Source of the DNA: Wenzhouxiangella sp. 15190
GTDB taxonomy: Bacteria; Pseudomonadota; Gammaproteobacteria; Xanthomonadales; Wenzhouxiangellaceae
Length of the DNA: 64,000 nucleotides
Reading direction: 5' to 3'
NCBI RefSeq assembly: GCF_003417465.1
Contig: NZ_QVMV01000028.1
Coordinates: forward strand, 62,001-126,000
Both the position numbers and the translations under genes were made by a program. Position 1 is the stretch's first letter, and the number at the start of each line of letters is the position of its first letter. Below the pieces are notes generated by a model that made no database searches, was not told where the DNA came from, and saw only the letters and a list, made by a program, of their open reading frames with translations. Shown piece by piece: positions 1-18,036 of this stretch.

Positions 1-2
1 AC

Positions 3-125
3 GCCGACCAGCCCGACTTCCACACCATCGCCAAGACTGCGAAACAACCCCTGCGCGACATGGAATACGAGCAGCTATGCCCGGGTTCCGACGCGCTCAC
101 ATCACTGCAGGATCGCCTGCGCTGA
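3..125 (+). CDS. C-terminal end of an unidentified protein (cut by window edge)
   Basis: An open frame runs in from the left edge and ends at a TGA at 123-125, leaving 40 visible residues that finish in SLQDRLR. The piece is acidic and soluble-looking, with no membrane segment and no motif I can assign. It converges on the EAL-domain gene, whose stop lies 55 bases further on. The short length prevents a family call; the frame itself is supported only by codon composition and the clean stop, so confidence is moderate. Confidence 0.45.
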   Translation, partial: ADQPDFHTIAKTAKQPLRDMEYEQLCPGSDALTSLQDRLR

Positions 126-179
126 AGCATCGCAGCCGCGGCCGGTGGGCATGCGAACCGGGCGCAAGCGGCAGCGGCA

Positions 180-2942
180 CTACTGGTTGTCCGGTCGCCT
201 GACCGGAAGTTCCGGGTGGTTTTTCAACAGCCAGGGTATGTCTTCCAAATCCATGGGCGGGCTGAAGTAGTAACCTTGCGCTTCCGGGCAACCCGCGTTC
301 TTCAGGAATTCCAGTTGATCCGTGCGCTCGATTCCCTCGGCCACGACGCCCATGCCGAGGCGCTGCGCCAGGTCGATGACCGAACTGACGATGCTGGCGT
401 CGGACTCGTCTCGGGGCAGGCCGCTGATGAAGGACTTGTCCAGTTTGACGAAGTCCACCGGGAATTGCTTGAGGTAGGCCAGAGATGAATAGCCCGTCCC
501 GAAATCGTCCACCGCGATCATGATGCCCATATCCCGCAGACTCTGCAGCAGTTGCACGGTCCAGTCCGGATCCATGACCAGCACGCTCTCGGTGATCTCC
601 ACCCGGATCTCTCGCCCCTCCACGCGGTGGCGTTGCATGGATGTCCGTATCGCTTCCAACAACCCCGGATCCTGGAACTGGATGGATGAGAAATTGACAG
701 CGACCCAGCCGAAGGGAACACCATCGGTACGCCACTCGGCAATCTGCCGGCAGGTCTCCTCGAAAACCCAGGCGCCCAGCTCGATGATCATGCCGTTATC
801 CTCGGCTACCCCAATGAAGTTGTTCGGGGGCACCAGGCCGAGTTCGGGATTGTTCCAGCGCACCAGGGCCTCCAGTCCGATGACCCGGCTGTTCGACAGC
901 CACACGGAGGGCTGGAAATGGAGCAGGAACTCCCGGTTGTCGAGCCCGCTGCGGAGCTGGCGCTCGATGAGGAGTTGATACTCCAGCTGTTCGGTCATTT
1001 CCGGAGTGAACACTACAATCTCGCCGCGACCCCTGTGCTTGGCCTCGCGCATGGCCACGTCGGCCTTGCGGAGAAGTTCGTCCAGGTTGGTGCCGTGCTC
1101 CGGCGACAGGGTGATACCGGCACAGACGGTGGGATGAATGGGGAGCTGCTCGATCCGAATGGGGGCGGTCAGACGCGCCATTCGCTCATGGATGATCTCG
1201 ACAGCCTGATCGGTATCGGAAACATCTCCAACTACCATCACGAAGTCGTCGCCGATCAACCGGGCCACGTAATCGTCGCCTTCACAGACTTTTCTCAGAC
1301 GCCGAGCCAGCTCCTCGATCAACTGGTCACCCACCACATGGCCGAAGGCATTGTTCACGGTCTTTAGGCGGTCAAGATTCATGAGGGCAAGGGCCCGGTT
1401 CGAACTCGTTCCGGATTCGTCGGAAACCTTCCCACTCTGAAACCAGTCTCTCAGGGCCTCCCGATTGGGCAAACCGGTAAGGGGATCGTGGTAGGAGAGG
1501 TAATCGACCTTGCGCTCGTAGTCGCGCAGCTGGGATATGTCTTCGAAATTCACCACCAGGTAGGGATCGCCCCCGTGAGGATCCTGTACTTCACTGACGG
1601 CGGCCCGCGACACGAACACGCGGCCCGCCATGGACTGCTGTAGCAGCTCACCGCGCCAATGGCCCTTGGCCTGGATCCCCTGGCGGATGTGATCTTCCTG
1701 CTGCTCGACTTCCAGGAACGGGGGCCGGCTGCCAATGGCGTCATCCCGTTCGCAGCCGATTAGACGCGTGTAGGCTTGATTGACGTCCAGGATCACGAAA
1801 TCCGCGTCGCAAATCATCATTGCCTCGTCGGCGCCACGGAAAGCGGCGGCCACGAGTTCGAGCTGGCGCTCGCTTTCCAGGCGGTCGCTGATGTCGCGTG
1901 CCACGACAAAGGCCTGCGCTTCTCCTCCCGGACTCTGGAAGCGCGCGCTGGTCATGTCCACCGGAATCGAAGTGCCGTCGGCGCGCCTGAATCGTATCGT
2001 TGCTCGAGCACGGCCGGTTCGCTCGCGCTCGGAGAGGGATGCTTCCAGAGCCGGGTCGGAACTGTCCACGACACCATCACGTCCCCGCTCGATGATCTCG
2101 GCTTCCGACAGCTCGAGTGCGGTTTCGGCAGCCGGATTGGCCGCCTCGATGGCACCATCGGGCCGCGTCAGGAACACCATGTCCGGACTATTCTCGAAAA
2201 GCGCCCGGAAACGTGCCTCGCTGGCCGCGATCCGCTGATGGGCTGTCTCTGCCCTGGAAATATAGAATCGCAACAGCAGGAACAGGGTGATGCTCGCAAA
2301 AAGCGTCAGGAGCAGGCTTTCCACCAGGTGCTTGCCAAACTCGGCGGGCAGGATCTCTTGGCTCACTACCACCTCGTAGAAGTCCAGGATCAGGGACAGG
2401 CACAGTAATACGACGCCGAACAGCGCGGCGACGCGAAAAGGATGAACCTGTATCTCGCTCCGGGCAGTCGAAGCGGTAACGGGCTGGTCCTCGATGAGCT
2501 TGGTAACCACGAAGATGAGGAACGCCGAGACTGCGACAAAGGCGGAGCCCTTGAGCATCTGTGCCCACATCCCCTCGCGGGTCAACTGGTCCATGTTGAA
2601 CAGGTAGAGGTCCGAGCCGACGATCCAGGCCAGACCCAGCACGAGATACGCCAGGGCGACCAGCACGGGCAGCCAATGCCGCCGGATGGGCAGGTATTGC
2701 ACCAATAGGTACACCGCCAGCGCCGAGAGCCCGACGAACAGGCTACCCTTGGTCACTTCTTCCACGAACGCGCTCTGGGCCAGGGCGCCGGTAAACAGCA
2801 GGAAGGCATCCGATCCCAGGATCCACAGGAGCCCTACCACCAGGTAGACGAACGCGATTCGGAGGCCGGATCGGGATGAACCTGCGAGCCGTCCCGACAG
2901 CTTCCGTCGCCCCCTTCGTATTCGCGATTCACCATGAGGCAT
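180..2942 (-). CDS. Membrane PAS-PAS-GGDEF(degenerate)-EAL c-di-GMP phosphodiesterase
   Basis: A cyclic-di-GMP signalling protein, predicted to hydrolyse c-di-GMP at the inner membrane. From the chosen ATG (920 aa): about six membrane segments within residues 27-235, PAS domains at about 250-365 and 370-490, GGDEF at about 495-660 and EAL at about 675-915. The GGDEF signature reads IGDDF, so diguanylate cyclase activity is unlikely. The EAL domain keeps EALVRW, the ITES glutamate, DDFGTGYSS, the VKLDKSF lysine and AEGIE, so phosphodiesterase activity is expected. The first two membrane hairpins are repeats of each other: each has a Y-x3-G-x2-WI-x-GSD signature. The frame extends to an ATG at 3053, but those 37 residues look non-coding and are poor in domain features, so MPHGESR is preferred as the start. 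No operon partner is adjacent. Confidence 0.88.
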   Translation of the reverse strand: MPHGESRIRRGRRKLSGRLAGSSRSGLRIAFVYLVVGLLWILGSDAFLLFTGALAQSAFVEEVTKGSLFVGLSALAVYLLVQYLPIRRHWLPVLVALAYLVLGLAWIVGSDLYLFNMDQLTREGMWAQMLKGSAFVAVSAFLIFVVTKLIEDQPVTASTARSEIQVHPFRVAALFGVVLLCLSLILDFYEVVVSQEILPAEFGKHLVESLLLTLFASITLFLLLRFYISRAETAHQRIAASEARFRALFENSPDMVFLTRPDGAIEAANPAAETALELSEAEIIERGRDGVVDSSDPALEASLSERERTGRARATIRFRRADGTSIPVDMTSARFQSPGGEAQAFVVARDISDRLESERQLELVAAAFRGADEAMMICDADFVILDVNQAYTRLIGCERDDAIGSRPPFLEVEQQEDHIRQGIQAKGHWRGELLQQSMAGRVFVSRAAVSEVQDPHGGDPYLVVNFEDISQLRDYERKVDYLSYHDPLTGLPNREALRDWFQSGKVSDESGTSSNRALALMNLDRLKTVNNAFGHVVGDQLIEELARRLRKVCEGDDYVARLIGDDFVMVVGDVSDTDQAVEIIHERMARLTAPIRIEQLPIHPTVCAGITLSPEHGTNLDELLRKADVAMREAKHRGRGEIVVFTPEMTEQLEYQLLIERQLRSGLDNREFLLHFQPSVWLSNSRVIGLEALVRWNNPELGLVPPNNFIGVAEDNGMIIELGAWVFEETCRQIAEWRTDGVPFGWVAVNFSSIQFQDPGLLEAIRTSMQRHRVEGREIRVEITESVLVMDPDWTVQLLQSLRDMGIMIAVDDFGTGYSSLAYLKQFPVDFVKLDKSFISGLPRDESDASIVSSVIDLAQRLGMGVVAEGIERTDQLEFLKNAGCPEAQGYYFSPPMDLEDIPWLLKNHPELPVRRPDNQ

Positions 2943-3176
2943 TTTCAACTGTCCTGACGGAAGCCGTGGAACTTTCCAACGCTGGCTGCCCGATTGCGCG
3001 CATGGCCTTCCAATCGCGCCGACACTCGAGATGGCACCACTGTACCAGAGCATGTAATTGAATGAATCTTCCAGTCGCTGGTTCCTTGAACGCCAAAAAG
3101 GCAGTCAGTAAGCTGGTTCTAAAACTCGCCGACAGGCGGAGGACGGGATATGGAATTCATGCCGCATGGCCAATGC

Positions 3177-3434
3177 TACCTTTGGACATCTTGGCTCGTC
3201 CTCCCGGGCTTGCACGGCCTAGAAGCACTCGAGTAGTTACGCGCCAATCCCGCCACGCAGTACCTTCCGGTGGTCATCCTGACCTCATCCGCTGAGCAGG
3301 AAGACATGTTTGGAAGCTACGAGCGAGGCGCCAACAGTTTCATCCGCAAGCCGGTGGATTTCGAGAAATTCAGCGAGGCCGTACGCCAATTGCAACTCTA
3401 CTGGCTTGTTCTCAACGAATCGCCGTTCAAGTAG
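3177..3434 (+). pseudogene. Decayed response-regulator receiver domain
   Basis: Within the 468-base gap 3054-3521, the frame from 3237 to a TAG at 3432-3434 encodes the end of a CheY-like receiver: [12 protein letters not shown] (beta4 with the Thr/Ser), then [12 protein letters not shown] (the conserved Lys-Pro), then the alpha5 helix ending in [12 protein letters not shown]. In the same frame just upstream, LPGLHGLEALE matches the loop after the phospho-acceptor strand but is interrupted by a TAG at 3234-3236. The preceding LDIL strand is visible only in another frame, implying a frameshift near 3185-3200. The N-terminal third is not recognisable. Kinase-paired single-domain regulators normally have about 140 residues. 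The rest of the gap (3054-3176 and 3435-3521) shows nothing I can assign. Confidence 0.7.
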
Positions 3435-3521
3435 TTCCAAAAGGTCCAGAGCGAGGCAGCGGCATCACCGAAGGAGCGGCTGCGCTGACACGGGTCGTTC
3501 TACCGTGCCCGCCTCAAGCCT

Positions 3522-5165
3522 TCATTCAAAGTCCCGGGGACGGATCATATCGGGCTTGAGAAAGTCCTTTTCGCCGGTATTGGCATGGTCACCGAGCACG
3601 TGTCCATCGGTTTCCCGCGTCTGCCCATAGCGTGAGTGCTGATGGAAGGTCGGGCCGTACAGTTCGCGAGTCTCGGCGACGTCACCCGTGTAGCGGGGAT
3701 CCTGCGGCCGCTCCTGACTGTTCAGGTAATAGGCGACATTCCAGGCTTCCTGATCGCTCAGCGAGTTGGGTTGCCCCAGTGGCATGTTCGACTTGATAAA
3801 ACCCGCTGCAGTGAACAGTCGAACGATACCCGCACCCCAATTATTGGACAGATCGCCCCAGGGCGCGGGGAAGACGGTGCGCCCATCCAGCTGCAGTCCA
3901 TTGCCATCTTCACCGTGGCAGACTGCGCAATTTGCCTCGAAAGTCTCCTTGCCCCGCTCGTAACTGACTTCCTCGGGACGTTCCGGGGCAGGGTAGCCAC
4001 GGCCGTAGATGGGGTGGGCCGGATACATGGGCACACCGGTCGCCATCCAGCGGTGATAGGCGACCAGGGCGAGCATGTCGTCACTGCCGTAGGCGGGCGG
4101 CTTGCCGTTCATCGAGTAGGTGAAGCAACCGGCAATGCGTTCCTCCAGGTTGTTGACATGATCGTTCTTGCCGCGGAAATCCGGCAGAACGACGGCAGCC
4201 GGCCAGGTCGGCCCGCTGAAGGGCAGACGGCCATCGCCCAGATGACAGCTCGAGCAGTTCATGGCGTTGAATACATTCTCGCCGCGTAGTTGCTGGGTGT
4301 TGGTGAACAGATCATGCCCCCGTCGAATCACCCGCTTGAGTTCTGGATGCAGGTCGGTATCGGCCAATTCATCGATAGTGGGCGGGATGTGCACCAGTTC
4401 ATTGTCTTCGGGTGCCGGAAAACCCAACTCGGTCAGTGTGGCGACATATTGCTCGGTGTCTTGCTCGGCAAGCGCACCGGTGGAACCGGCAGCCGCTGAA
4501 ACCGGGGCGGACTCTTCCTGGCTGGTTCCGGGATCCTGCCTCGACAGCCATGCGGCAACCGCACGAATATCCTCTTCGCGCATCCTGCGCGCCATGGTTC
4601 CCATCAGGTCCTGGGGATCATTGTCCCGCGTACCGTCCTGCCAGGCCCGCAACTGGCTTTCGATATAGCCGGCATGCTGTCCGGCGATACCGGGAAAGGT
4701 CGTACCGGCTCCCCGGTTTTCCGGCCCGTGACAACTGTTGCAGGAGACGAGGTAAACCGACCAGTCACCACGCAATGCGATCATCTCGCCGCGTTCCAGC
4801 AGCGCTTCATCCGCATCCCCACCACCCTGGCCGGGCGTCGGCGTCATCTGGCTGTAGAAGGCAGCCAGATCCGCAATCTGTTGATCATCCAATCCGCTCA
4901 CGAAAGGCGCCATCGACGCATTGCTTCTTGCACCGGATTTGAAATCATGCAGCTGCCTGGCAATGTAGCCGGCATCCAGTCCGGCCAGGCGCGGCCAGGA
5001 TTCTCCGCCTTCGATATGCTTGCCGCTGCCATCGGCCTGATGGCACGCGGCGCACGCCGCAGCGGCCTGCTCACCACGCGCGGGGTCACCGGCCGGTTGG
5101 CCAGGCCCCGGGCCAGCAAGCGCAATCAGCCCCGCAAAGAGTACGAAAGGAACCGGTTTCAACAT
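3522..5165 (-). CDS. tsdBA: Tetraheme cytochrome c, TsdB-TsdA fusion (thiosulfate dehydrogenase)
   Basis: A secreted c-type cytochrome of 547 aa with four CxxCH heme sites: CAACH (about residue 36), CNSCH (140), CSSCH (301) and CAVCH (412). The first two lie in a c4-like diheme half that resembles TsdB, an electron acceptor. The last two lie in a half that resembles TsdA, which oxidises two thiosulfates to tetrathionate (or the reverse) in the periplasm. The TsdA signature ERIAGCF followed by SMNGKPP supplies the cysteine that ligates the active-site heme in that family. The start at 5165 gives a clean signal peptide (MLKPVPFVLFAGLIALAGP); an upstream ATG at 5189 would add eight residues before it. 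Divergent from nrdJ, with an FNR-like site in between. Direction of catalysis cannot be read from sequence. Confidence 0.82.
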   Translation of the reverse strand: MLKPVPFVLFAGLIALAGPGPGQPAGDPARGEQAAAACAACHQADGSGKHIEGGESWPRLAGLDAGYIARQLHDFKSGARSNASMAPFVSGLDDQQIADLAAFYSQMTPTPGQGGGDADEALLERGEMIALRGDWSVYLVSCNSCHGPENRGAGTTFPGIAGQHAGYIESQLRAWQDGTRDNDPQDLMGTMARRMREEDIRAVAAWLSRQDPGTSQEESAPVSAAAGSTGALAEQDTEQYVATLTELGFPAPEDNELVHIPPTIDELADTDLHPELKRVIRRGHDLFTNTQQLRGENVFNAMNCSSCHLGDGRLPFSGPTWPAAVVLPDFRGKNDHVNNLEERIAGCFTYSMNGKPPAYGSDDMLALVAYHRWMATGVPMYPAHPIYGRGYPAPERPEEVSYERGKETFEANCAVCHGEDGNGLQLDGRTVFPAPWGDLSNNWGAGIVRLFTAAGFIKSNMPLGQPNSLSDQEAWNVAYYLNSQERPQDPRYTGDVAETRELYGPTFHQHSRYGQTRETDGHVLGDHANTGEKDFLKPDMIRPRDFE

Positions 5166-5237
5166 CTCTGATCGTCCTGCCGCCGGCAAAGGGCATGTTC
5201 ATGTTTGCATTCTGGACCCGGGGTTCGGCATTCCGGC

Positions 5238-5251
5238 TTGATGCAGGTCAA
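5238..5251. promoter_or_regulatory. FNR/ANR-type box between tsdBA and nrdJ
   Basis: TTGATGCAGGTCAA matches the FNR/ANR consensus TTGATnnnnATCAA at nine of ten defined bases. It sits in the divergent gap, about 79 bases before the tsdBA start and 93 before the nrdJ start, and could serve either gene. The same core recurs at 7981 and 17974. Confidence 0.65.
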
Positions 5252-5337
5252 GGGAAAGGCAGATAGCGCGTTCCGACCGTTTGCCCGAGGCGTCGTCGCG
5301 GCGCATGATGGTCGGGACATCCCCGGGGCAGGAGCGT

Positions 5338-7056
5338 ATGTCGCCGACTCTGGACACCGAAATCGCAGCGCATATATGGGCCACCCGATACCAGGCCGCG
5401 GGCGAAGACGATGTGGGCGCAACGCTCGATCGGGTGGCTCGCGCGGCAGCATCGGTCGAGCCATCCGATCGGCCGGGCTGGGCGCGCCGCTTTCGCCAGC
5501 TCATGGAGGACTTGCGATTCATGCCGGCCGGCCGAATCCTCGCCGGCGCCGGCGTCGACCGTCGCGTCACCCTGTTCAACTGCTTCGTGATGGGCCAATT
5601 GGAGGACTCGCTGCAAGCCATCTTCCGCAGCCTGGGCGAGAGCGCCATGACGCTGCAGCACGGCGGCGGGATCGGCCTGGATTTCTCTTCCTTGCGACCA
5701 GCGGGTTGGGTCGCGAAGGATAGCGGCACGGTCGCATCCGGACCGGTGTCGTTCATTCGCGTGTGGGATGCGATGTCCGAAGCGATGCAGTCGGGCGGTA
5801 ACCGCCGCGGCGCCATGATGGCGACACTGCGCTGTGACCACCCCGACATCGAGGCCTTCATCAAGGCCAAGAACCGGCCGGACGTGCTGTCGCACTGCAA
5901 CCTGTCGGTCCAGGTCACCGACGCGTTCATTCATGCCGTACAGCATGATCTGCCCTGGTCCCTGCGTTTTCCCGCCGGCGGCGATGGGCGCGAACACGCC
6001 CGGGTGTCGGCGCGGGCGCTCTGGGCGAAGCTCGCCGCGACCGCCGCCGAAGCGAGCGAACCTGGCGTTCTGTTCGTCGACACCATCAACCGGGAGAACA
6101 ACCTGGCCTATCGTGAATGGATCAGTGCGACCAACCCCTGCGGCGAGGTGCCGCTGCCGGCCTGGGGAGCGTGCAACCTGGGCTCGATCAACCTGACGCA
6201 CTTCGTCAAGCGGGCGTTCACGGCGCAGGCGGCCCTCGACTTCGACGGCATCGGCGAAACGGCGGCACTGGCCGTTCGCCTGCTCGACAACGTGATCGAC
6301 GTCTCCCGATTCCCGCTGGCGGCTCAGGCGCGGGAAGCCCGGTCTACCCGGCGAGTCGGGCTGGGCGTTACCGGCCTGGCCGATGCCCTGATCATGCTCG
6401 GCCTGCGCTACGACCAAACGCCGGCCCGGGACGCGGCAAGGGAAGTACTCGAATGCATGCGCGATCGAGCTTACCGCGCCTCGGTCGAACTGGCGAGCGA
6501 GAAGGGTGCCTTCCCTGCGCTCGACGTGGACGCCTATCTCGAACGCCCCTTCATTCGACGGCTTGACCGGGAACTGCAGCAAGACATCCGGCGTTTCGGC
6601 ATACGAAACAGTCACTCGCTCTCCATCGCGCCGACCGGCACCATCAGCCTGCTTGCAGGTAACATCTCCAGCGGCATCGAACCTGTCTATGCGCCGACGT
6701 TTTCACGCACCGTTCGAACCGGAGAGCAAGACGCGCGGTTCGAACTGGAGGACGCTGCCTGCAGGCGCTGGCGTCTTTCGGGCCTCGAGGGTACGCCTGG
6801 CGCGCTGGTCGTCGCCGGTGACATCCGTCCCGAGGACCATCTGGCCATGCTCGCCGCGCTGCAGCCATTGGTCGACAACGGGATCTCCAAGACGATTCCG
6901 CTGGGCGACTCGGTCGAAGGGGAGGGCGTATCCGATCTATTCCTCAAAGCCCACGGCATGGGCCTCAAGGGCGTGACGGTGTATCGCACCGGCCATGTCC
7001 GCGGCAGCGTCGTGCAGCAATCGGACTGCGCTGCGTTAGGTGCTTGCGAATTATAG
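5338..7056 (+). CDS. nrdJ: Adenosylcobalamin-dependent (class II) ribonucleotide reductase, compact form
   Basis: Reduces ribonucleotides to deoxyribonucleotides with a cobalamin-generated thiyl radical and does not need oxygen. The 572-aa protein shows the substrate-site cysteines in order: FNCFV (about residue 81, redox Cys), NPCGEVPL (about 268, thiyl Cys with its Asn and Glu) and GACNLGSINL (partner redox Cys), then APTGTIS near 430. The C-terminus carries CAALGAC, which may act as the reducing dithiol. The ATG at 5338 is chosen because CAGGAG precedes it by five bases; the frame opens at 5281. The N-terminus shows no room for a full ATP cone. It is separate from the larger nrdJa/nrdJb enzyme at 18-21 kb. 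The upstream FNR-like site suggests use under low oxygen. Confidence 0.9.
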   Translation: MSPTLDTEIAAHIWATRYQAAGEDDVGATLDRVARAAASVEPSDRPGWARRFRQLMEDLRFMPAGRILAGAGVDRRVTLFNCFVMGQLEDSLQAIFRSLGESAMTLQHGGGIGLDFSSLRPAGWVAKDSGTVASGPVSFIRVWDAMSEAMQSGGNRRGAMMATLRCDHPDIEAFIKAKNRPDVLSHCNLSVQVTDAFIHAVQHDLPWSLRFPAGGDGREHARVSARALWAKLAATAAEASEPGVLFVDTINRENNLAYREWISATNPCGEVPLPAWGACNLGSINLTHFVKRAFTAQAALDFDGIGETAALAVRLLDNVIDVSRFPLAAQAREARSTRRVGLGVTGLADALIMLGLRYDQTPARDAAREVLECMRDRAYRASVELASEKGAFPALDVDAYLERPFIRRLDRELQQDIRRFGIRNSHSLSIAPTGTISLLAGNISSGIEPVYAPTFSRTVRTGEQDARFELEDAACRRWRLSGLEGTPGALVVAGDIRPEDHLAMLAALQPLVDNGISKTIPLGDSVEGEGVSDLFLKAHGMGLKGVTVYRTGHVRGSVVQQSDCAALGACEL

Positions 7057-7140
7057 ATCTCCAAGCGCCGGCGCTCGAAGACATGATAGCGCCGGGTGAA
7101 TGGTCGGCATGATTGTGGCGACCGTCGCGAGCACGTAGAA

Positions 7141-7167
7141 TGTGTACATATGCAAGTTGTATACACA
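7141..7167. promoter_or_regulatory. Probable VapB operator (inverted repeat)
   Basis: Imperfect inverted repeat with arms tgtgtacata and tgtatacaca around a 7-base centre, lying 10 bases before the vapB ATG. Type II antitoxins usually autoregulate through such palindromes over their own promoter; the assignment rests on position and symmetry. Confidence 0.5.
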
Positions 7168-7177
7168 CGGAGTCATT

Positions 7178-7372
7178 ATGAGAACCAACATCGTCATCGA
7201 TGACCAGCTGATGGCCGAGGCCATGAAGGCAACCGGCTGCAAGACCAAGAAGGAAGCCGTCGAGGAGGCGCTCAGGCTGCTGGTGCGGCGGAGCGAGCAG
7301 CAGGAAATCCGGAAATTGCGCGGACGCGTCCGCTGGGAAGGCGACCTCGAGGAAATGCGGGGCAGCAAATGA
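7178..7372 (+). CDS. vapB: VapB-type antitoxin
   Basis: A 64-aa protein with the N-terminal MRTNIVIDDQLM strand and a following helix typical of VapB antitoxins (the DUF2191-like group), then a charged C-terminal tail expected to wrap the toxin. It should neutralise VapC and repress the operon through the inverted repeat just upstream. The start at 7178 follows CGGAG at a good distance; the frame is open 12 codons further to an ATG inside the operator, which is unlikely to be used. Its stop overlaps the vapC start by four bases (ATGA). Confidence 0.85.
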   Translation: MRTNIVIDDQLMAEAMKATGCKTKKEAVEEALRLLVRRSEQQEIRKLRGRVRWEGDLEEMRGSK

Positions 7373-7770
7373 TACTGGTCGATACCAGCGTGTGGATCGA
7401 CTACCTCAACGGCACGGAGGATCCGCACACCGACGCGCTCGATGCCGGCATCGTGGACGGTATCGTGGCCATGGGGGATCTGATCTTTCTGGCGATTCTC
7501 CAGGGGATTCGCAATGACCGGGAATACGAGCTTACTCGCCGTAGCCTGGAGACCCTGGACCACTACGAGTTGTTTGGTACGGCGATGGTCGAAAAGTGCG
7601 CGGAGAATTTCCGTGCGCTGCGCAAGCGGGGCGTCACCATCCGCAAGACCGCGGATGTGATCATCGCGACGTTCTGCATCGAGCATCGGATGCCGCTGCT
7701 GTTCACGGACCGGGATTTCGTGCCTTTTGTGGAGCATCTGGGGCTGCGCCAGGCCCAACTGGATGTGTAG
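7369..7770 (+). CDS. vapC: VapC PIN-domain toxin with an altered active-site position
   Basis: A 133-aa PIN-domain protein, expected to cleave tRNA or other RNA using Mg2+. The first acidic residue is present in LVDTSVWIDYL (Asp5), and later acidic positions are present in KTADVIIA and FTDRDF. In this family the segment around GDLI is normally followed by a conserved glutamate (GDLIL-x-E-xLQG); here the codons read GDLIFLAILQG, with Ala42 where Glu is expected. This may weaken catalysis. The gene is translationally coupled to vapB. It ends 37 bases before the dif site, so it is the gene immediately flanking the terminus recombination site. Confidence 0.82.
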   Translation: MILVDTSVWIDYLNGTEDPHTDALDAGIVDGIVAMGDLIFLAILQGIRNDREYELTRRSLETLDHYELFGTAMVEKCAENFRALRKRGVTIRKTADVIIATFCIEHRMPLLFTDRDFVPFVEHLGLRQAQLDV

Positions 7771-7807
7771 CGGGGTGCTCTTTACTGGCTCTCTGCGCCC
7801 GTACAGT

Positions 7808-7835
7808 AGTTCGCATAATGTATATTATGTAAAGT
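7808..7835. other. dif: dif site for XerC/XerD chromosome dimer resolution
   Basis: The 28 bases consist of an XerC arm (agttcgcataa), the central hexamer tgtata and an XerD arm (ttatgtaaagt). Against the Escherichia coli dif site I count 24 of 28 identities, with the centre and both inner arms unchanged. It lies in the AT-richer gene-free gap 7771-8054 between vapC and uspA. Gene direction to the right is mainly leftward, as expected if replication approaches dif from the right. The rest of this gap holds no gene that I can see. Confidence 0.9.
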
Positions 7836-7980
7836 TACGGCTAAGGAGCCCATCGAGCCGGACTGAAAGCACTCTACTTGGATGCTCTTTCTTATATGCT
7901 TATTTTCCAATAGTTACGGACCTTTTTTAATCCTTTTTATCGCTCTGTACAGTTCCCTGCGCCTTCGGTGGGCTCACGGA

Positions 7981-7994
7981 CTGATTCAGGTCAA
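7981..7994. promoter_or_regulatory. FNR/ANR-type box upstream of uspA
   Basis: CTGATTCAGGTCAA, eight of ten matches to TTGATnnnnATCAA, centred about 67 bases before the uspA ATG. That is where a class II activator site at -41.5 would put the transcription start about 25 bases ahead of the gene. Confidence 0.55.
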
Positions 7995-8054
7995 CATGCC
8001 GCGGGGCCTTCCGTGTGACGCTTGGTGTGAATTCACCGCTACAAGGAAATCGTC

Positions 8055-8492
8055 ATGAGCCAGGACAGGAATCTCGTGGTCGCTCTCGATGGATCCGCGC
8101 CGTCATTCGAAGCACTCGATGCAGCGCGCGATCTGGCCAAGGCCATGCGACGCGAGCTCTCGGCGTTGTATGTCTTCCCGCATCATCGTGGCGTATCGGC
8201 CACCCCGTCCGGCCTGGACGAGCAGACTTCGAAACAGAATCTGGAACGGATGAAGGAAAGCGAGTCGCAACAGATTTTCGGCGAGGCCGAGTCCCGTTTG
8301 GGCAAGTCCTTTGCCCACAGGTACGTACTGGCCGGCGACCCGGCCGAGGAAATCATCGCCTTCATGGAAGACAATCCGGGCACTCACCTGGTCATGGGTC
8401 GCCGTGGGCTGTCGAAGATCAAGTCACTTCTGATGGGCAGCGTCAGCAGCAAGGTGGCTTCGCATGCTCCGGGGCTGGTTACGGTCGTCTAG
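8055..8492 (+). CDS. Universal stress protein, single UspA domain
   Basis: A 145-aa cytoplasmic stress protein. The N-terminal VVALDGS strand and the C-terminal MGRRGLSK ... LLMGSVSSK segment form the G-x2-G-x9-G-S/T nucleotide-binding pattern, so ATP binding is likely. AAGGAAA precedes the ATG by a good spacing. The FNR-like box upstream suggests induction at low oxygen, as known for ANR-controlled Usp proteins in Pseudomonas. It ends 7 bases from the stop of the convergent glucan synthase gene. Confidence 0.87.
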   Translation: MSQDRNLVVALDGSAPSFEALDAARDLAKAMRRELSALYVFPHHRGVSATPSGLDEQTSKQNLERMKESESQQIFGEAESRLGKSFAHRYVLAGDPAEEIIAFMEDNPGTHLVMGRRGLSKIKSLLMGSVSSKVASHAPGLVTVV

Positions 8493-8499
8493 TCGATCT

Positions 8500-11400
8500 T
8501 CATGGGCGGCGCACTTCCACGGTCACTTGGTGTGTGTCGCCGTTGTCCTTGAAATCGATGGCGTTGCCCTTGATCGATTTTCCATCCATCTCGATGCGCA
8601 ACGCGTACTCGTTGGCGCCGGTGACCTGCCTGTATTCGATGACGTAGGGAGAAGTACCGGCCCTGAGCGTGACGCGGCAGCGCTTCCAGGCCGGCGGCAA
8701 GCAGGGCTGGATCAGCAGCCAATCACCCTGCCGGCGGAGCCCGAAAACGGCCTCCACGGCCCCGCGCCATGCCCAGGCCGCCGCACCGGTGTACCAGCTC
8801 CAGCCGCCCCGGCCTAGATTGTCGCCCTGGCTGTAGATATCCCCGGCCAGCACGTACGGCTCCAGCCGGTAGTGCCTGGCGTCACGCTCGCTCGCGCTTC
8901 GCTTGACCGGATCGAGAATACCCAGCAGGCGTTCCACCTGGTCGGCCCACCCCAGATGGGCCGCCGCCCACAGTGCCCAGGTTGCCGCGTGGGTATACTG
9001 CGCGCCGTTCTCGCGAATGCCCGGCGGATAGCCGCGGATGTAGCCTGGATCCTGCTGGATGCGGTTGAACGGCGGCCGCAAGAGCTGGATCAGTCGGGCG
9101 TCGTCATCGACGAGCTCCTCCAGCGCAGAGGTCATGGCCATCGCGGCGCGCTCAGGCAATCTGTCGGGCCCCAGCACTGACCAAGCCTGTGCGATCAAAT
9201 CGATGCGGCACTCCTCACTGTCTTGCGAGCCAAGCGGTGTTCCGTCGTCGAACCAGGCGCGCAGGTACCAGCGACCGTCCCAGGCATGCTTCTCCACCCG
9301 TCCGAGGAGCGACTCGGCCAGCTGGTGGAATTGGGTGGCGATTTCGGTCTCTCCGCGGGACTCGCAGATTGGCGCGAATTCCCCGAGCACCCGAACCAGA
9401 AACCAGGCGAGCCAAACGCTTTCGCCGCGGCCCGTGGTGCTGACCCGATTGAATCCGTCGTTCCAGTCGCCGCTGCCGATCACGGGCAGCCCGTGAGGGC
9501 CGACGATGCTGGCGCGGTCGATGGCCCGGCAGCAATGTTCGAAAAGACTGGCCCGGCGTTCGCTCTGTCCGAACTCGGCATAGCGCTCGGCCTCGCCTGC
9601 CGCCAGCGGCGCGCCGTCAAGCCAGGCCACCGGCTCGTCCAGGATGCCGCGATCGCCGGTGGCCTCGATGTAGTGCGCCGTCACGAAGGGCAGCCACAGC
9701 AGGTCGTCGGAGCAGCGCGTTCTGACCCCCCTGAGCGGCGACTCGTGCCACCAATGCAGGACATCGCCTTCCCGGAACTGCCTCGAGGCCGCGAACAGGA
9801 TGTGCTCCCGGGTGGTTTCGGGCGCCAGCCAGGTCATCGCCATGACGTCCTGTAGCTGATCGCGAAATCCGAAACCGCCGCTGGACTGGTAGTAGCCGGT
9901 TCGGCCCCACAGCCTGGAGGTCATGGCCTGGTACGGCAACCAATGGTTGTAGAGCAGATTGAAGGTCTCGTCTGGCGTTTCCATCTCCACCCCCGACAAA
10001 AGCCGCTGCCAGTGCTGCCGGCTTCGCTTCCGGCTCCGGTCACCCTGCCCCTCAGCGATGTATTGCTCGGCCAGTGCCAGGGCGGCTTCGCGTGTCGCGC
10101 CGTGGCCGATCACGAAGTGGACGATGCGCTCTTCGCCGGGCGGCAGATCCAGATGAACCTGCAGCGCCGCGCAGGGGTCGCTGCCCGGCGCGAGTGAACC
10201 ACTCAGGCCGATTCGCCACAGGGCCGCGGGCTGATCGAGGGAACCGCCCTGCCCCAGGAATTCCCTGCGGTCGGTGGTGAAGCCGTGCACGGGAAGATCG
10301 CAGGCAACGAAGGCGTGGCCATTGCCGGCGAAGCGGTCGTAGGGGTTGTTCGCCAGCAACGCGTGGCGCTCGAGGTCCAGGTCGCAGTCCAGGTGCAGCG
10401 CGGTATCGCCGCGACGATTGCCCAGAACCCATTCGAGGTAACAGGTAGCCGTGATCCGGCGTGTCCAGTCGCAGCGATTGGTCAGCGCCAGACGGCAAAT
10501 CTTGACCGGATCGGACTTGTCGACGTCGATATCCAGTTCCTGCTCGAGACCGTTGTCATGGCGCAGAAAACGGCTGTAGCCGATCCCGTGACGAACCTGG
10601 CAGGCCCCCGAGCCCGGCCGGGGCCCCGGCGTGGGCGTCCAGACCCGTCCGGTTTCTTCGTCGCGCAGGTAGATGACCTCGCCGGAGGGATCGGTGACCG
10701 GATCGTCCGGCCAGGCGGTCAGGCGATACTCGCTGCTGTTGCCCGCCCAGGTAAAGCTGCTGCCCGATTCGGTCACAAGCGTGCCGAAACCGGGATTGGA
10801 CAGCACGTTGGACCAGGGGGCCGGCGTGTGTTGTCCCGGCTCGAGATGAATGACGTATTCGCGACCGTCGGCGCTGAAACCGCCAATGCCGTTGCCCTGA
10901 ACCAGGTCATCGGGTCGCGTCAGGGACTGGAGTACCTGGTCGACGTCGTGGGCGTCTCGGGACGACACCAGCGGCGGCAGCCGGGCCGGTTTCGGCACCA
11001 GCAGCTGGCTGTGCAGGTCGGGCCGGTCGAGATCCAGGACCACGCTGGCTGCAGCCAGCAGCGCACGGCGTTGGTCGGCGGAGAGTTCACGACCGGGGAT
11101 GACCGTGACCTGGCCGAGCAGCACCCGCTGGGTTCGCGAACGCACGGACTCGACCAGTTCCTGCAGCCGGTCCCGGCCGGTCTGCTCATAGCCGCCGGCC
11201 ATCTCGTCGATCAGAAGCAGGTCCGAACGCAACTGCCGCCCGGAAATCAGGGTATGTGCCCGAACCAGGCGCTCGATCTGTTCGAGGTCGCCGCGGTTGT
11301 TCACCAGGCCAGCAATGATGGGCCAGTCCCCCGAAACGCCGCGCGACCAGAGCAGCGACTGCACCGCCTCGTCAGGCCGCTCGCCCTTCCACCGCCACTC

Positions 11401-14400
11401 CGGCTGTGGCTCAAGCATGGCCGACATCAACCGCATGGCGAACTGCACCTCGCCGGGCGGCATCTGCAGGTGGTGCAGTTCGAGCGCGGACTGCATGCGG
11501 GCCTGTTCGAAAAGCCAGTTGATGCGGCTCGGGGAACGATAGTGGCTCATTGCACCGAGCAGTTCCTCGCGCGAACGGGCCGTGGCGGTCAGCAGACCGA
11601 TCTCGACGCGCCCGTAGGCTTCGATGGTGACTTCGACGGCCGTGGTGCTGGACGGATTGATCACCGCGCCGGCACTGCCGCTCAAACTCTCGAGCCCGTT
11701 CGACAGACCGGCCGGCCGCTGCAGGCTGCCAGCGCGCCCGATAAACCGCGCGCGGTCGGTCTCCCAGCCGAACCGGGCGGCCACGCCCGCCGGCGGGATG
11801 AGCGCATGGCCGACATAGAGCGACATTTCCTCGTCGCTGCGCGGGCGGCGGCGGAAGACCAGGGTCCGGTCGGCCGGCAGGCATTCGCTCTCGACGAACA
11901 GGCGCGCAAAGGCCGGATGCCGCTCGAAATCGCGCGCCGGCGCCATGGCCAGTTCGGCAAAGCTGGCGATGACCAGGCGGCGCGGCGTTCCCGACTCGTT
12001 GTTGATGACCAACCGGCGCGCCTCGACGTCGTGCTGGCCGGCGATGGCAACATCCAGCCGGCACAGCAGCGAATGGCGCCGGCGCCGGAACTCGACCCGG
12101 TGGGGCGCCTGCACGACCTGGGTCTCGTCGGCCTCGTCCCGCGAGGCGGGATTGGCGGCGAGGGCGAACAACCGGTCCTGCTCCGGCTCGGCAACGTAGA
12201 CCCGGGCCCCGTGCCGCCGGGTCGTGATATCGGGCTGCCAGCGATCGACGGCGATGCCCTGCCACCATCTTCCCCCGCCGCCGCAGGCGTCGACAATGGT
12301 GCTGAAGTTGCCGTTCGACAACAGGCAATAGCGAGCCGCAGCGGTGTCGAGCGGGTTGACCGTCCATTCGACCGGGCTGGCGGCAACGGCCAGGGTACGT
12401 TCGGGCTGCAGACGCATGCGAATGGCCAGCTCGGGGCTGGTCCGCGGCAGGCGCTCGTGCAGCAGCATCGACACGCCGGCAACGTGCCGGTCGGCCATGA
12501 ACCTTCGGACCATGATGTCGTCGTTGAGGTAGTTGTCGATGGCGGCCAGGATCATGCCCTGGTGATGGCTCATCCAGGCTCTCACCACCCGGGCGCGGCG
12601 TGGCTTGTCGCTGGCCCGGCGGCCATAGTCGACCGCCTCGTAGCAGCCGAACAGACCGATGGCGTGTATCTTCGAGAATTTCTTCAGGTTGCCGATCGCG
12701 GCGGCCGGGCGATAAGGCAGGGCCATGATGCTGGCGTACGGCGCCACCACCAGGCGCTCGCCCAGGTCGCGGCGAAAGCCCAGCCCGGGCACGCCGAAGC
12801 TGCGGTAAGCGTAGTGGTGCTCTTCGTTGAGCTGGTAGTAGGCCGATTCCGAAACGCCCCAGGGGATGCTGCCATGCGCCTCGGCGAAGTCCCGGTGCAG
12901 GTCGATCGCGTTGGTGCTGGCCGTCTCGAGCAGGCCGGTTGCCGACGTGGGGCTATACAGCCGCGGCATGAGGTACTCGAACAGGGTCGCGCCCCAGGAC
13001 ATCAGCAGGCGCCGTCCGCCGTAGCGCCGGAACGGTCGCCCCAGGTGCAGCCAGTGGCGCATCGGCACCTGGCCGCGCGAAATGGCCAGCAGGCTGGTCA
13101 GGCGGGCTTCGGAGGCCAGCAAGTCGTAGAAGTTCGAGTCGAGCACCGCGTTGTCGGCGTCGAAACCGATGTGGAACTGGTGCCGCTCGCTGTTGTAGAG
13201 AAAGCCGAAGTCCATCTCTTCGACCCAGCCCTCGGCCTGGCGGGCAAGGTCCGCGCAGTCCTCGGCGAGTTGCTCGTTGGCTTCCCGCGCCTGTTCCAGG
13301 CTACGCTCGATGCGCTCGGCCAGGGCCGCGGGCAGCCCTGCCCCTTCGTCGTGCGCGGCGTTCATCAGGCGCATGGCGCGCCGACTCTGGGCCCCGTGCG
13401 CAGCCGGAGACCACCCGTTCTCGAGCAAGTCGGCAAGCTTCGCCAGGGGCCGACTACCACTTTCCTCGGCACAGCGCCTCAGCATGGGCAGATCGGGCAG
13501 CCAGGGCTGCAGGGATTCAATGGCACGCCGGGCCTGGCGCACCTGCCCGATCAGCTGCGTCAGCCAGGTTCTGAGCTCGGCGATGACATCGGCACTGACA
13601 TCCAGGCGCTGGTCCTCGGCCAGTTCGATGGTGGCCTCGGCCAGTTCGTCGAGTTGATGCTCGTGCCAGATATCCAGCAGTTGGCGGCACTCGGCGGGGC
13701 CGGCCGCCAGCGCCTGGCGATATTGTGCGTGGACGCGGTCGAGCCACTTCGTCAGGGCTTGATGTCCCGGCGCCTGTTCGGCCAGCGGGCGCGCGGTGTA
13801 CTCGATCAGCTCGAGCGTGTCGGCCAGGCCGCGCGCCAGTCTGGTGAGCGCCAGCGGCTGATTCGCCATTTCCTCGAGCGAGCGCGCCAGCGTGACCAGG
13901 GCGACGGCCAGATTGCCGCTGTCGACCGTGGAGACGTAGGCCGGAGACAGTCGCTCGAGATCGTGAATCTCGTACCAGTTGTACCAGTGCCCCCGGTAGC
14001 GCTCGAGCTGCGCCATGCCTTCCATGCTGTTGCGCAGCCAGGCGGTGAGCGTGTGCGGATCGATCCAGCCGAAATCGTGGGCGGCCAGGGCCGCGTTGAG
14101 CGCCATGCCGATGTTGGTCGGCGAGGTACGCGCGGCCAGCACGACTTTCGGGTCGTCCTGGTAGTTGTCGGGCGGCAACCAGTGGGTATCGGGGCCGACG
14201 AAGTGATCGAAGAACAGCCAGGTCCGTCGGGCGACCCGGCGCAGCAGTTGCTCGGCCTCGGGGTCCGGGCGCTCGATCTCGCGCCGGCGCGGACGCTCGA
14301 CGCGCTTGACGATGGCCGGTGCGAACAGCCAGGCCAACGCCACTGGCGCAGCCACCAGCAGCAGCACGGGCTGCGACAGGCCCACTCCTGCAAGCACCGC

Positions 14401-16965
14401 CGCGCCCAGCAGCGGGCAGGGCCACAACTCCCGCCAAAGACTGCGTCGGGCCCGACCGAGGCTGCGATGGACGTGCGCGGCCGTCGTCCACTCCAGCAGG
14501 TGGCGATGGGTGATGAACACCCGCGCCAGCGTGCGGATAACCGCATCGCCGATCATCAGGCTCTGGTACGGCAGCAGCACCAGGCTCAGCAGCCAGTGCT
14601 GGGCCTGCAATCGCAGACCGTGAAGCGTCGCCCGTAGTCTCAGGGCGGTCGCACGCGGTGCCACCAGCAGGTGACTGGCCGAGCCCAGCAGTTCGCTCAG
14701 CAACCCGGCGGCCGGCAGCAATAGAAAGAGCAACGACCACAGCAGGTCGCTGCCGGGCAGGATGCCGCTGAAGGCGATCAGGATGAGCAGCAGCGTGACC
14801 GGCGGCTGCAGGCTGCGGCGCAGGTTGTCGACGATCATCCAGCGGTGGACGAGCGACAGACGGTTGCGGTAGTGCTCACCGTCGGTGCCTCGCACGCGGC
14901 GCCCCAGCCAGGGCAGCAGCTGCCAGTCACCGCGGACCCAGCGGTGCTGGCGGCGCGTCCAGGCGATGACGCTGGGCGGAAATTGCTCCATCAGCACGAT
15001 GTCGGTGGCCAGGCCGGCGCGCGCGAAGATGCCTTCGAGCAGGTCGTGGCTGAGCAGGCTGTTGTCGGGAATGCACCCTTCCAGGGTGGTCTCGATGGCA
15101 CGCCAGTCGTAGATGCCCTTGCCGGCGAAGATCCCCTCGCCGAAAAGGTCCTGGTACACGTCCGAGCTGGCGTGTGTGTAGAGATCGACGGTCGTATCGC
15201 CGGAGAAGGCCCGCGTGAAGGCGTTGTTTCTCGTGGTGTCCGGATCGATCTCGACACGCGGCTGGATGATGCCGTAGCCGGCCTTGAGCGAGCGGCCATC
15301 GGCGCTGTATACCGCACGGCTGAGCGGATGAGCCAGCGTGCCCACCAGCTGCCTCGCCACCCCCGGGGGCAAGCGGGTATCGGCATCGAGCGTAATCACG
15401 TAGCGAACGCCGCCGAGGCGCCCGCGCTCGCCGAAGCTGTCGGTGAAACCCGAGTCCTGGTGTCCGGCAAGCAGCCGGTTGAAGGCCATCAGCTTGCCAC
15501 GCTTGCGTTCACGCCCCATCCAGCAGCCTTCGCGCTCGTTGAATTCGCGCTGGCGGCACAGGAAGAGGAAATCGGCCTCGGGATATTGACGCCTCAGGCG
15601 CTCGATCTGCTGGCGTCCCCGCCGCAGGATGGACCGGTCGGAGCCGAGTGTCGGCTCATCGGCATCGTGCAGGTCACCCAGCACGACCCAGACCAGCTGC
15701 GGATCGTCGTTGGCCAGGAAGTTGATTTCCAGGCGCTCGAAGGCGTGATCGACATCATCGGGGCCGGAGAAGATCACCGGCACGGCCACCGTGCTGCGAT
15801 ACGGCGGCGGAATGCCTGATTCGAAATCCAGACGCGCCAGGGTGCGCGGCGGAATCAGGCGGGTCAGCAGGCCGTTGGCCAGGGTGACGGCCAGGCCCAG
15901 GGCGGGAACCAGCAGAAGCGCCAGGAGCACGGCTGACAGCGCCGCGGAAGCCTGGTGGTGAGCGAGATAGGCGGCCGGCAGTGCCACGGTGACGCCGGCC
16001 AGCGCGAAAACCAGCAGGAAGTAGACCAGACCCGGCCGGTGCAAGGCGAAATCAAGCAGGCGCTTGCCCGGGCGCGGGTGATAGCCGATCTCGCGCTCGG
16101 TCTGCGGCCGTCCGCCGCCGACCAGCCAGTAGCCGACGTGAGCGTGGCGCGAATCGACCGGCGAAGCCCGCGCCAGCGAGACGCAACGCCGGGCGATATC
16201 CGTTTCGGCATGGCTGCTGCCGCGGGCCAGTTCCTCGACCACTCGTCGATAGCGATCCCGGGACTCGAAGTCCATTTCGGCGTAGGCACCGGCGGGGTCG
16301 TCGCGCAGCAGGCGCTCGACGGCGCTCAAGCGCTCGAAGCTCTCTCGCCACTCCTGTCCGGAAAGCGTTCGCAGGCTGATCACGCCGCCGGCGATGCGCT
16401 CGACCAGCCGGCCCTCCTCTTCGTGCCCGGCCCGCACCTGCTCGACCAGGGCCTCACCGCCGTCAACCAGATGTATGGTCTCGGCCAGGATCACGAAAGC
16501 CGGCAGGGCCCAGAGTTCACCGATGCTCAGGGGGCGTTCTGACTGGTAAATCCCGATGGCGCGCTCCATCCAGTCCGGATCGAGCGGCTGGCCGCCCTGC
16601 TCCACCAGGATGGCGGCCAGGGCCTGGACCGCGGGCTCGTGCCGCACGCCCTGGATATCGACTCCGGGCAGGCTGCGCACGTAGGCCTTCGGCAAGTCGC
16701 GACGGACGCCGGCAAGCGCCTCCTCGATCACGTGCTGATTGTCGAGTAGCCATTCCTCGCCGCGCGAGGCGTAACGGCGACCGGACAGGAGTGCGTCGAG
16801 ATCCTCGTACAGCCGGGTCAGCCGCTTGCGCTGTCGATCCAGCTCCCGCCGGAAGCGCCGGCCGTCCGAGCTTCGCTCGCGCGGGCTGCGCGCCAGGGCA
16901 TGAAGGGCGCGTTCCAGCGACTGATGGTCGGGCTCCGGGCTGCCGGTCGGCTGGTCGCTCGACAC
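8500..16965 (-). CDS. Cyclic beta-1,2-glucan synthase (GT84-glycoamylase-GH94)
   Basis: A 2821-aa membrane enzyme of NdvB/Cgs type that makes cyclic beta-1,2-glucans from UDP-glucose; full length for the family. In order: a cytoplasmic N-terminal region, membrane segments from about residue 308, a GT84 domain with ITLDADTRLPPG (about 523), SHDLLEG and QHRWVRGDW (about 673), more membrane segments at about 720-790 and 842-885, a glycoamylase-like domain around 1250-1470 (SERHQFHIGFD, LMSWGATLFEYL), carbohydrate-binding GH94 parts, and a GH94 catalytic domain with GSGDWNDGFN (about 2495). Initiation, elongation, ring closure and chain-length control are carried by one polypeptide in this family. 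The start is a GTG 10 bases after the tandem usp stop, so the two genes form an operon. No ndvA-like exporter is in the window. Confidence 0.9.
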   Translation of the reverse strand: MSSDQPTGSPEPDHQSLERALHALARSPRERSSDGRRFRRELDRQRKRLTRLYEDLDALLSGRRYASRGEEWLLDNQHVIEEALAGVRRDLPKAYVRSLPGVDIQGVRHEPAVQALAAILVEQGGQPLDPDWMERAIGIYQSERPLSIGELWALPAFVILAETIHLVDGGEALVEQVRAGHEEEGRLVERIAGGVISLRTLSGQEWRESFERLSAVERLLRDDPAGAYAEMDFESRDRYRRVVEELARGSSHAETDIARRCVSLARASPVDSRHAHVGYWLVGGGRPQTEREIGYHPRPGKRLLDFALHRPGLVYFLLVFALAGVTVALPAAYLAHHQASAALSAVLLALLLVPALGLAVTLANGLLTRLIPPRTLARLDFESGIPPPYRSTVAVPVIFSGPDDVDHAFERLEINFLANDDPQLVWVVLGDLHDADEPTLGSDRSILRRGRQQIERLRRQYPEADFLFLCRQREFNEREGCWMGRERKRGKLMAFNRLLAGHQDSGFTDSFGERGRLGGVRYVITLDADTRLPPGVARQLVGTLAHPLSRAVYSADGRSLKAGYGIIQPRVEIDPDTTRNNAFTRAFSGDTTVDLYTHASSDVYQDLFGEGIFAGKGIYDWRAIETTLEGCIPDNSLLSHDLLEGIFARAGLATDIVLMEQFPPSVIAWTRRQHRWVRGDWQLLPWLGRRVRGTDGEHYRNRLSLVHRWMIVDNLRRSLQPPVTLLLILIAFSGILPGSDLLWSLLFLLLPAAGLLSELLGSASHLLVAPRATALRLRATLHGLRLQAQHWLLSLVLLPYQSLMIGDAVIRTLARVFITHRHLLEWTTAAHVHRSLGRARRSLWRELWPCPLLGAAVLAGVGLSQPVLLLVAAPVALAWLFAPAIVKRVERPRRREIERPDPEAEQLLRRVARRTWLFFDHFVGPDTHWLPPDNYQDDPKVVLAARTSPTNIGMALNAALAAHDFGWIDPHTLTAWLRNSMEGMAQLERYRGHWYNWYEIHDLERLSPAYVSTVDSGNLAVALVTLARSLEEMANQPLALTRLARGLADTLELIEYTARPLAEQAPGHQALTKWLDRVHAQYRQALAAGPAECRQLLDIWHEHQLDELAEATIELAEDQRLDVSADVIAELRTWLTQLIGQVRQARRAIESLQPWLPDLPMLRRCAEESGSRPLAKLADLLENGWSPAAHGAQSRRAMRLMNAAHDEGAGLPAALAERIERSLEQAREANEQLAEDCADLARQAEGWVEEMDFGFLYNSERHQFHIGFDADNAVLDSNFYDLLASEARLTSLLAISRGQVPMRHWLHLGRPFRRYGGRRLLMSWGATLFEYLMPRLYSPTSATGLLETASTNAIDLHRDFAEAHGSIPWGVSESAYYQLNEEHHYAYRSFGVPGLGFRRDLGERLVVAPYASIMALPYRPAAAIGNLKKFSKIHAIGLFGCYEAVDYGRRASDKPRRARVVRAWMSHHQGMILAAIDNYLNDDIMVRRFMADRHVAGVSMLLHERLPRTSPELAIRMRLQPERTLAVAASPVEWTVNPLDTAAARYCLLSNGNFSTIVDACGGGGRWWQGIAVDRWQPDITTRRHGARVYVAEPEQDRLFALAANPASRDEADETQVVQAPHRVEFRRRRHSLLCRLDVAIAGQHDVEARRLVINNESGTPRRLVIASFAELAMAPARDFERHPAFARLFVESECLPADRTLVFRRRPRSDEEMSLYVGHALIPPAGVAARFGWETDRARFIGRAGSLQRPAGLSNGLESLSGSAGAVINPSSTTAVEVTIEAYGRVEIGLLTATARSREELLGAMSHYRSPSRINWLFEQARMQSALELHHLQMPPGEVQFAMRLMSAMLEPQPEWRWKGERPDEAVQSLLWSRGVSGDWPIIAGLVNNRGDLEQIERLVRAHTLISGRQLRSDLLLIDEMAGGYEQTGRDRLQELVESVRSRTQRVLLGQVTVIPGRELSADQRRALLAAASVVLDLDRPDLHSQLLVPKPARLPPLVSSRDAHDVDQVLQSLTRPDDLVQGNGIGGFSADGREYVIHLEPGQHTPAPWSNVLSNPGFGTLVTESGSSFTWAGNSSEYRLTAWPDDPVTDPSGEVIYLRDEETGRVWTPTPGPRPGSGACQVRHGIGYSRFLRHDNGLEQELDIDVDKSDPVKICRLALTNRCDWTRRITATCYLEWVLGNRRGDTALHLDCDLDLERHALLANNPYDRFAGNGHAFVACDLPVHGFTTDRREFLGQGGSLDQPAALWRIGLSGSLAPGSDPCAALQVHLDLPPGEERIVHFVIGHGATREAALALAEQYIAEGQGDRSRKRSRQHWQRLLSGVEMETPDETFNLLYNHWLPYQAMTSRLWGRTGYYQSSGGFGFRDQLQDVMAMTWLAPETTREHILFAASRQFREGDVLHWWHESPLRGVRTRCSDDLLWLPFVTAHYIEATGDRGILDEPVAWLDGAPLAAGEAERYAEFGQSERRASLFEHCCRAIDRASIVGPHGLPVIGSGDWNDGFNRVSTTGRGESVWLAWFLVRVLGEFAPICESRGETEIATQFHQLAESLLGRVEKHAWDGRWYLRAWFDDGTPLGSQDSEECRIDLIAQAWSVLGPDRLPERAAMAMTSALEELVDDDARLIQLLRPPFNRIQQDPGYIRGYPPGIRENGAQYTHAATWALWAAAHLGWADQVERLLGILDPVKRSASERDARHYRLEPYVLAGDIYSQGDNLGRGGWSWYTGAAAWAWRGAVEAVFGLRRQGDWLLIQPCLPPAWKRCRVTLRAGTSPYVIEYRQVTGANEYALRIEMDGKSIKGNAIDFKDNGDTHQVTVEVRRP

Positions 16966-16975
16966 GTCCGGCCGC

Positions 16976-17911
16976 TCAGTGGCTGCCCTGCAGCAGTTCC
17001 TGCCCTACCCGCATGCCGTCCTGAAGCGCAAGCACCGGGGTGGTGATGCGCGTCAGCAACACCTGGCGAACGGCCTCGCTGCTCCAGCCGCTGCTGCCTT
17101 CACCATGGTGCACGGCCAGTACCAGCAGGTCCGGTCGTTCCCGCTGACAGACCTCGGCAATGGTTTCTACAGGCCGCGCGGAGGCCTCGAGGCGGGTCCG
17201 GATTTCGTGGTGCGATCCCAGGCGATCGCGCAGTTCCTCGAGATAACCGGCGGCCACGCGCCGGTTGCATTCGAGCAGTTCGGACTTGAGCGACGCTTCC
17301 CGCGCCGTCAGCGGCCGGCGGCGCGGCATGAGGGGTTCGCTGACCAGGTGCAGCAGCTCGATCGTCGCGCCACCGCCGGCGTCGAGCGCGCTGGCCACAT
17401 GCAGGGCCACCTCGGCCGGCTGCGAGCCGTCCAGCGATACCATGATGTGGCGGTAGGGCTCGCCGGGACTGGCCTCGTCGGCCTGCCCGCGAACGATCAG
17501 GTAGGGAATTCGGGTGTTGGCCAGCACCTTGTGCACGGTCCCGCCGTAGGGCAGCCCGGAAGCACCTCCGGCGCCCCAGGCCGACAGGACCACCAGGCGA
17601 ATGTCGTGATGCTCGATGAACTGGGCCACCGCTTCGGCCGGGCGGCCGTCGAGCACCTCAGTCTCCGTGGGCGCGCCGGCCAGGCGCTCGTCCCCGACCA
17701 GTTTCTGCAGGTAACGCTGCGCCTCGGCCTTGCGCAATCGCCAGTCCACACAGCCCGCGCTGTGTTCTCCCTGGGCGTCCCTCGGCTCGGACAACACTCG
17801 CAGCAGGAACACCCGACCGGAAAACGCCCGGGCCATCCGTCCTGCATGCACCAACGCCTCCTCGGCAAAGTCCGAACCGTCGAGTGGAACCAGAATTCGG
17901 GAGAAGGGCAT
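16976..17911 (-). CDS. Tandem universal stress protein (two Usp domains)
   Basis: A 311-aa protein made of two Usp domains: the first begins at MPFSRILVPLDGSD and the second at about residue 155 with RHIMVSLDGSQ. Neither half keeps a complete G-x2-G-x9-G nucleotide loop, so an ATP-independent role is possible. It is the first gene of a pair with the cyclic glucan synthase. An FNR-like box is centred about 69 bases upstream of the ATG, and a weak -10 (TAGGAT, minus strand, near 17947-17952) lies at the right distance from it. This puts glucan synthesis under probable oxygen control. Confidence 0.85.
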   Translation of the reverse strand: MPFSRILVPLDGSDFAEEALVHAGRMARAFSGRVFLLRVLSEPRDAQGEHSAGCVDWRLRKAEAQRYLQKLVGDERLAGAPTETEVLDGRPAEAVAQFIEHHDIRLVVLSAWGAGGASGLPYGGTVHKVLANTRIPYLIVRGQADEASPGEPYRHIMVSLDGSQPAEVALHVASALDAGGGATIELLHLVSEPLMPRRRPLTAREASLKSELLECNRRVAAGYLEELRDRLGSHHEIRTRLEASARPVETIAEVCQRERPDLLVLAVHHGEGSSGWSSEAVRQVLLTRITTPVLALQDGMRVGQELLQGSH

Positions 17912-18011: not shown

Positions 18012-18036
18012 TCTGATCAGGCTGGATCAGGGAACA

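Follow-up and report, generated by a model that had tools for sequence, protein, structure and literature searches.

Wenzhouxiangella sp. 15190 carries what is almost certainly its chromosomal dif site at positions 7808-7835 (plus strand) of the window, the 64,000-nucleotide stretch of DNA analyzed here. This identification is based on the sequence of the site, its uniqueness in the genome, the polarity of the octamers around it and the presence of genes for XerC, XerD and an FtsK gamma domain; it sets the position of the replication terminus and delimits the two replication arms in the genus. We further suggest, as a tentative reading, that dif in Wenzhouxiangella may act as a one-way door: foreign DNA would enter repeatedly and on the XerC-arm side only, giving a hypervariable zone of approximately 16 to 73 kb that ends at dif and a frozen flank on the XerD side, with a polarity set by dif and not by the replication arm. 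Such a pattern, if true, would mean that the orientation of dif decides where the genome takes up new DNA at the terminus, and it would be directly testable in strain collections.

The 28-mer AGTTCGCATAATGTATATTATGTAAAGT is identical to E. coli dif at 24 of 28 positions, as the earlier note had claimed, while the runner-up in the window (its own reverse complement excepted) matches at 16 of 28. The site is intergenic and has the 11-6-11 layout of the dif consensus. Based on alignment with E. coli dif, it consists of a putative XerC-binding arm (AGTTCGCATAA, 7808-7818, plus strand), the central region TGTATA (7819-7824, plus strand) and a putative XerD-binding arm (TTATGTAAAGT, 7825-7835, plus strand). 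GC content is 0.25 within the 28-mer, compared with 0.49 for the surrounding 284-bp spacer. The site is unlike E. coli dif at four outer-arm positions (1, 4, 24 and 27 of the 28-mer), and it is in the outer arm that proteobacterial dif sites vary (PMC2731167). This is an ordinary dif, as proteobacterial sites of this form are already well described (PMC2731167; review PMC5357621), and it is like the E. coli/gammaproteobacterial dif used by XerCD and FtsK in being an AT-rich, intergenic 28-mer found once per chromosome. No paper in the literature searched mentions dif in this genus.

The host genome is 3.13 Mb in 55 contigs and is 99.8% complete. The window lies within contig C26 (276,158 bp), where dif occupies bp 69808-69835. 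A search of all contigs with a 19-bp or 16-bp core and up to 3 mismatches recovered nothing beyond this site and its complement; a second or better dif-like 28-mer, for which the earlier note had advised looking, was not found in any contig. Of 61 genomes searched, that of the window plus 60 relatives, 53 contain the dif core, and an identical 28-mer is present in Wenzhouxiangella sediminis XDB06, a member of the same genus, and in two gammaproteobacterial MAGs. The recombination machinery is also encoded: XerC on C32 (348.6 bits) and XerD on C30 (348 bits), both over the cut-off, and a single FtsK gamma domain on C49 (E-value: 1.8e-29). From established knowledge of these proteins, XerC is predicted to bind the left arm of the 28-mer and XerD the right. 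At division, the FtsK motor would load on GGGNAGGG-type octamers and travel to dif from either side, and contact of its gamma domain with XerD would then cause the two dif sites of a chromosome dimer to recombine. The convergent GGGNAGGG octamers and the genes for XerC, XerD and FtsK gamma are likewise shared with the E. coli/gammaproteobacterial system; unlike that system, the 276 kb contig has no matS-type site (zero occurrences of GTGACRNYGTCAC).

FtsK-orienting octamers change polarity at dif, both in the window's genome and in four relatives. On the 276 kb contig, 49 of 56 GGGNAGGG octamers are aimed at dif and seven are aimed away. Counted on both strands, as the earlier note had proposed, they are strongly biased (15:0 left of dif and 7:34 right, Fisher p = 1e-8), and the best single polarity split, at 68919-72043 on the contig, has dif inside it. 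Within the window, octamers run towards dif from the left at 3986-3993 (GGGCAGGG, plus strand) and 6919-6926 (GGGNAGGG, plus strand). From the right, 14 GGGNAGGG octamers run towards it on the minus strand between 10043 and 58559, with starts at 10043, 10247, 13336, 17003, 18155, 25954, 31536, 38191, 39840, 42983, 46779, 53546, 57420 and 58552. The earlier note had listed the octamer at 3986 and the first five of these, as CCCTNCCC, with the claim that all octamers noticed point to dif. Every one is present and does so, but the list missed the one at 6919 to the left, nine more to the right and two plus-strand octamers aimed away (14414 and 54789), such that the claim applies to 16 of the 18 in the window.

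Among the 42 patterns of this composition (a single A, six G and one free position), GGGNAGGG is the commonest on the contig and its polarity is among the highest; GGGGAGNG (14:0) and GGANGGGG (21:2) have higher ratios than GGGNAGGG (49:7) but far fewer sites. The most polar octamer on contig C26 is GCAGGGCG, with 59 copies towards dif and 7 away, and GGGCAGGG (34 towards and 4 away) stands behind it. GCAGGGCG resembles known RAG-type polar motifs. In 200-kb stretches of four genomes of the same genus (G027, G018, G017 and G026), the best octamer split also brackets dif, the nearest octamers lying 1.0 to 2.1 kb to the left and 0.9 to 5.2 kb to the right.

A switch in GC skew at dif, another expectation of the earlier note, was observed in sign but not in exact position. 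Mean skew is +0.009 left of dif and -0.031 right of it (block permutation p = 1e-4), but it is near zero for approximately 30 kb on either side (contig positions of roughly 30 to 100 kb), a two-segment fit puts its best change point near 99 kb on the contig, approximately 29 kb to the right of dif, and within the window alone there is no clear switch at the site. Skew by itself would thus not locate the terminus at this base. The flat skew and the 29 kb offset are not unusual, because dif and skew shift points were found to be correlated but not coincident in a survey of 641 organisms (PMC3025954). G027, a single-contig relative, was sampled in 20-kb pieces: skew stays positive between 0.2 and 1.82 Mb and negative between 1.90 and 3.3 Mb, the one exception being the sample at the contig start, and dif (1.868 Mb) lies within the interval where the sign changes. 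Because no dnaA motif was found at the start of the relatives' contigs, the roughly mid-contig position of dif in G018, G026 and G027 was not used as evidence. The earlier note had named three results that would count against a terminus dif (a better dif elsewhere, no skew switch and unbiased octamers); all three were looked for and the terminus dif withstood each.

An alternative explanation is that the 28-mer is an attachment site, or the remnant of one, left by an XerCD-using element, and that the working dif is elsewhere. In favor of this are the variability of the left flank and the vapBC toxin-antitoxin pair at 7178-7770, the end of which is 37 bp from the 28-mer. This explanation is nevertheless very improbable for three reasons. 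First, the nearly complete genome holds no other site. Second, both arms of the 28-mer are well conserved. Third, octamer polarity switches at the 28-mer. A chance match can be dismissed, as matches of at least 24/28 to E. coli dif are expected, under an iid model, 9e-8 times in the window and 4e-6 times in the 3.13 Mb genome, and conservation of the site extends through the genus and order.

The placement of vapBC beside a dif-type site is similar to that in the pdif modules with toxin-antitoxin genes of Acinetobacter plasmids. A second dif flanking vapBC was sought in the window and none was found; in this respect the pair is unlike a pdif module. None of the dif-flanking stretches examined in relatives gave a match to VapC.

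The two sides of dif differ in gene content and in conservation. To the right, a conserved XerD-side flank starts at 8055-21142, with genes encoding a universal stress protein, an NdvB-like 2821-aa protein, a universal stress protein, a TSCPD protein and a class II ribonucleotide reductase; it is collinear to the right of dif in G018, G008, G003 and others. To the left is a variable XerC-side zone, comprising window positions 1-7807 and bp 54051-62000 of contig C26. Its dif-proximal part (1-7807) is not collinear with relatives and carries genes for a GGDEF/EAL protein, a cytochrome c protein and a second class II ribonucleotide reductase, as well as vapBC. When the neighbors of dif were compared in approximately 25 genomes from the genus, each oriented according to its dif arms, those on the left were nearly always different, while those on the right fell into few classes, the commonest being the universal stress protein encoded here at 8055-8492. 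Of 91 pairs of genomes with at least 1.5 kb on either side of dif, 43 share homology on the right only, 4 on the left only, 3 on both sides and 41 on neither; the number of independent flank events behind these counts is uncertain, because the pairs are not independent and several of the genomes are incomplete MAGs. Nine disjoint pairs gave 7 right only, 0 left only and 2 both (sign test p = 0.016).

Right-flank collinearity across the genus extends over 100 kb and starts within 250 bp of dif. Over 100 kb, the window's genome has 66 reciprocal best hits with G018 on the right and 5 on the left, and 61 and 15, respectively, with G027. Collinearity on the left returns at -15.8 kb in the window's genome, -18.5 kb in G027 and -72.8 kb in G018. 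In comparison with W. sediminis (L017, a record with 744 bp to the left of dif), the alignment covers window positions 7797 to 15033 at 84% identity, with its left end at dif. In G017, the block found right of dif in the window's genome is instead on the left, past 37.7 kb of variable zone, and another block begins 5.6 kb to the right of dif. In G026, conservation on the left is limited to isolated shared genes at -2.0 and -12.6 kb until a conserved run begins at -37.9 kb. Because the zone is on the XerC side in G017 despite the swapped blocks, and also in G026, it is the XerC arm, rather than any one block, that the long zone tracks. The zone is on the same side of dif in all five genomes. 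Proteins from it include type I restriction-modification, reverse transcriptase, PIN and transposase families, whereas the right side in the five genomes consists mostly of shared genes, such as those for SecB and glycerol-3-phosphate dehydrogenase.

A mechanism for this asymmetry, which we rate a little short of an even prospect, is that dif in the genus forms a sharp boundary between a conserved XerD-side flank and a replaceable XerC-side zone through repeated integration of elements matching only the XerC half. In the known Xer-exploiting phages of V. cholerae, attachment sites agree with dif over its XerC half but become divergent in the direction of the XerD half (PMC5357621). From the geometry of strand exchange, integration of such elements would leave an intact dif with the XerD-side flank and place the element on the XerC side. 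This arrangement is found in two genomes of the same order, G043 and G057, in which a half-site is located 6.3 and 7.2 kb left of dif, respectively, with a Zot-encoding filamentous prophage between half-site and intact dif (L069 4533-10832 and L070 about 5330-12540). The variable zone would be like the integrative mobile elements exploiting Xer (IMEX, such as TLC- and VGJ-type phages and the gonococcal genetic island) in that element DNA would sit on the XerC side of an intact dif, a fixed side. It is unlike them in two ways. First, no half-site was detected left of dif within 69 kb in the window's genome or within 80 kb in the four relatives of the genus, so that the left zones of these five genomes lack the hybrid attachment site expected at the far end of an element. 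Second, no phage or integrase family was identified among the window zone proteins scanned. Because the search turned up no attachment remnants in the genus, we only infer that XerCD-borne elements produced the one-sided zone.

The chief competing explanation is that ordinary insertions, deletions and terminus-centered inversions replaced the left flank with no involvement of XerCD, the right flank having persisted because its genes are under selection or by chance in a small number of lineages. We regard this as evenly poised between true and false. It agrees with the lack of half-sites in the genus, with the transposase and type I restriction genes of the zones, which are mobile by other routes, and with the blocks swapped around dif in G017. 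It also agrees with the genus of G048, in the same order, where half-sites occur on both sides of dif, both flanks vary and the one-sided pattern is not seen. Two observations stand against it: the boundary coincides with dif to approximately 10 bp in the comparison with W. sediminis, and a swap of the flanking blocks does not move the zone from the XerC side.

Half-sites of the reverse kind, with an intact XerD arm and a diverged XerC arm, were observed 6 to 7 kb to the right of dif in G064 (G064:C1:2534562), G092 (G092:C40:60844) and G077 (+7.3 kb). It is possible that these represent elements of opposite handedness. Separately, three MAG contigs end approximately 70 bases or less from dif (G011:C188, G001:C242 and G028:C307), and G028 has dif on two contigs, C194 and C307. 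These ends and the double dif of G028 may reflect mixtures of strains with differing left flanks.

Two different class II ribonucleotide reductases flank dif in the window. For the left one (5281-7056), only its paralogue was matched near dif in relatives, while the right one (18998-21142) is conserved there. In two relatives, G027 and G022, an interruption of approximately 0.9 to 1.1 kb divides the conserved ribonucleotide reductase gene (L055, about 6134-7029 right of dif; L058, about 2755-3878 right of dif), with homology resuming at the break; the interruption resembles an intein or a comparable insertion.
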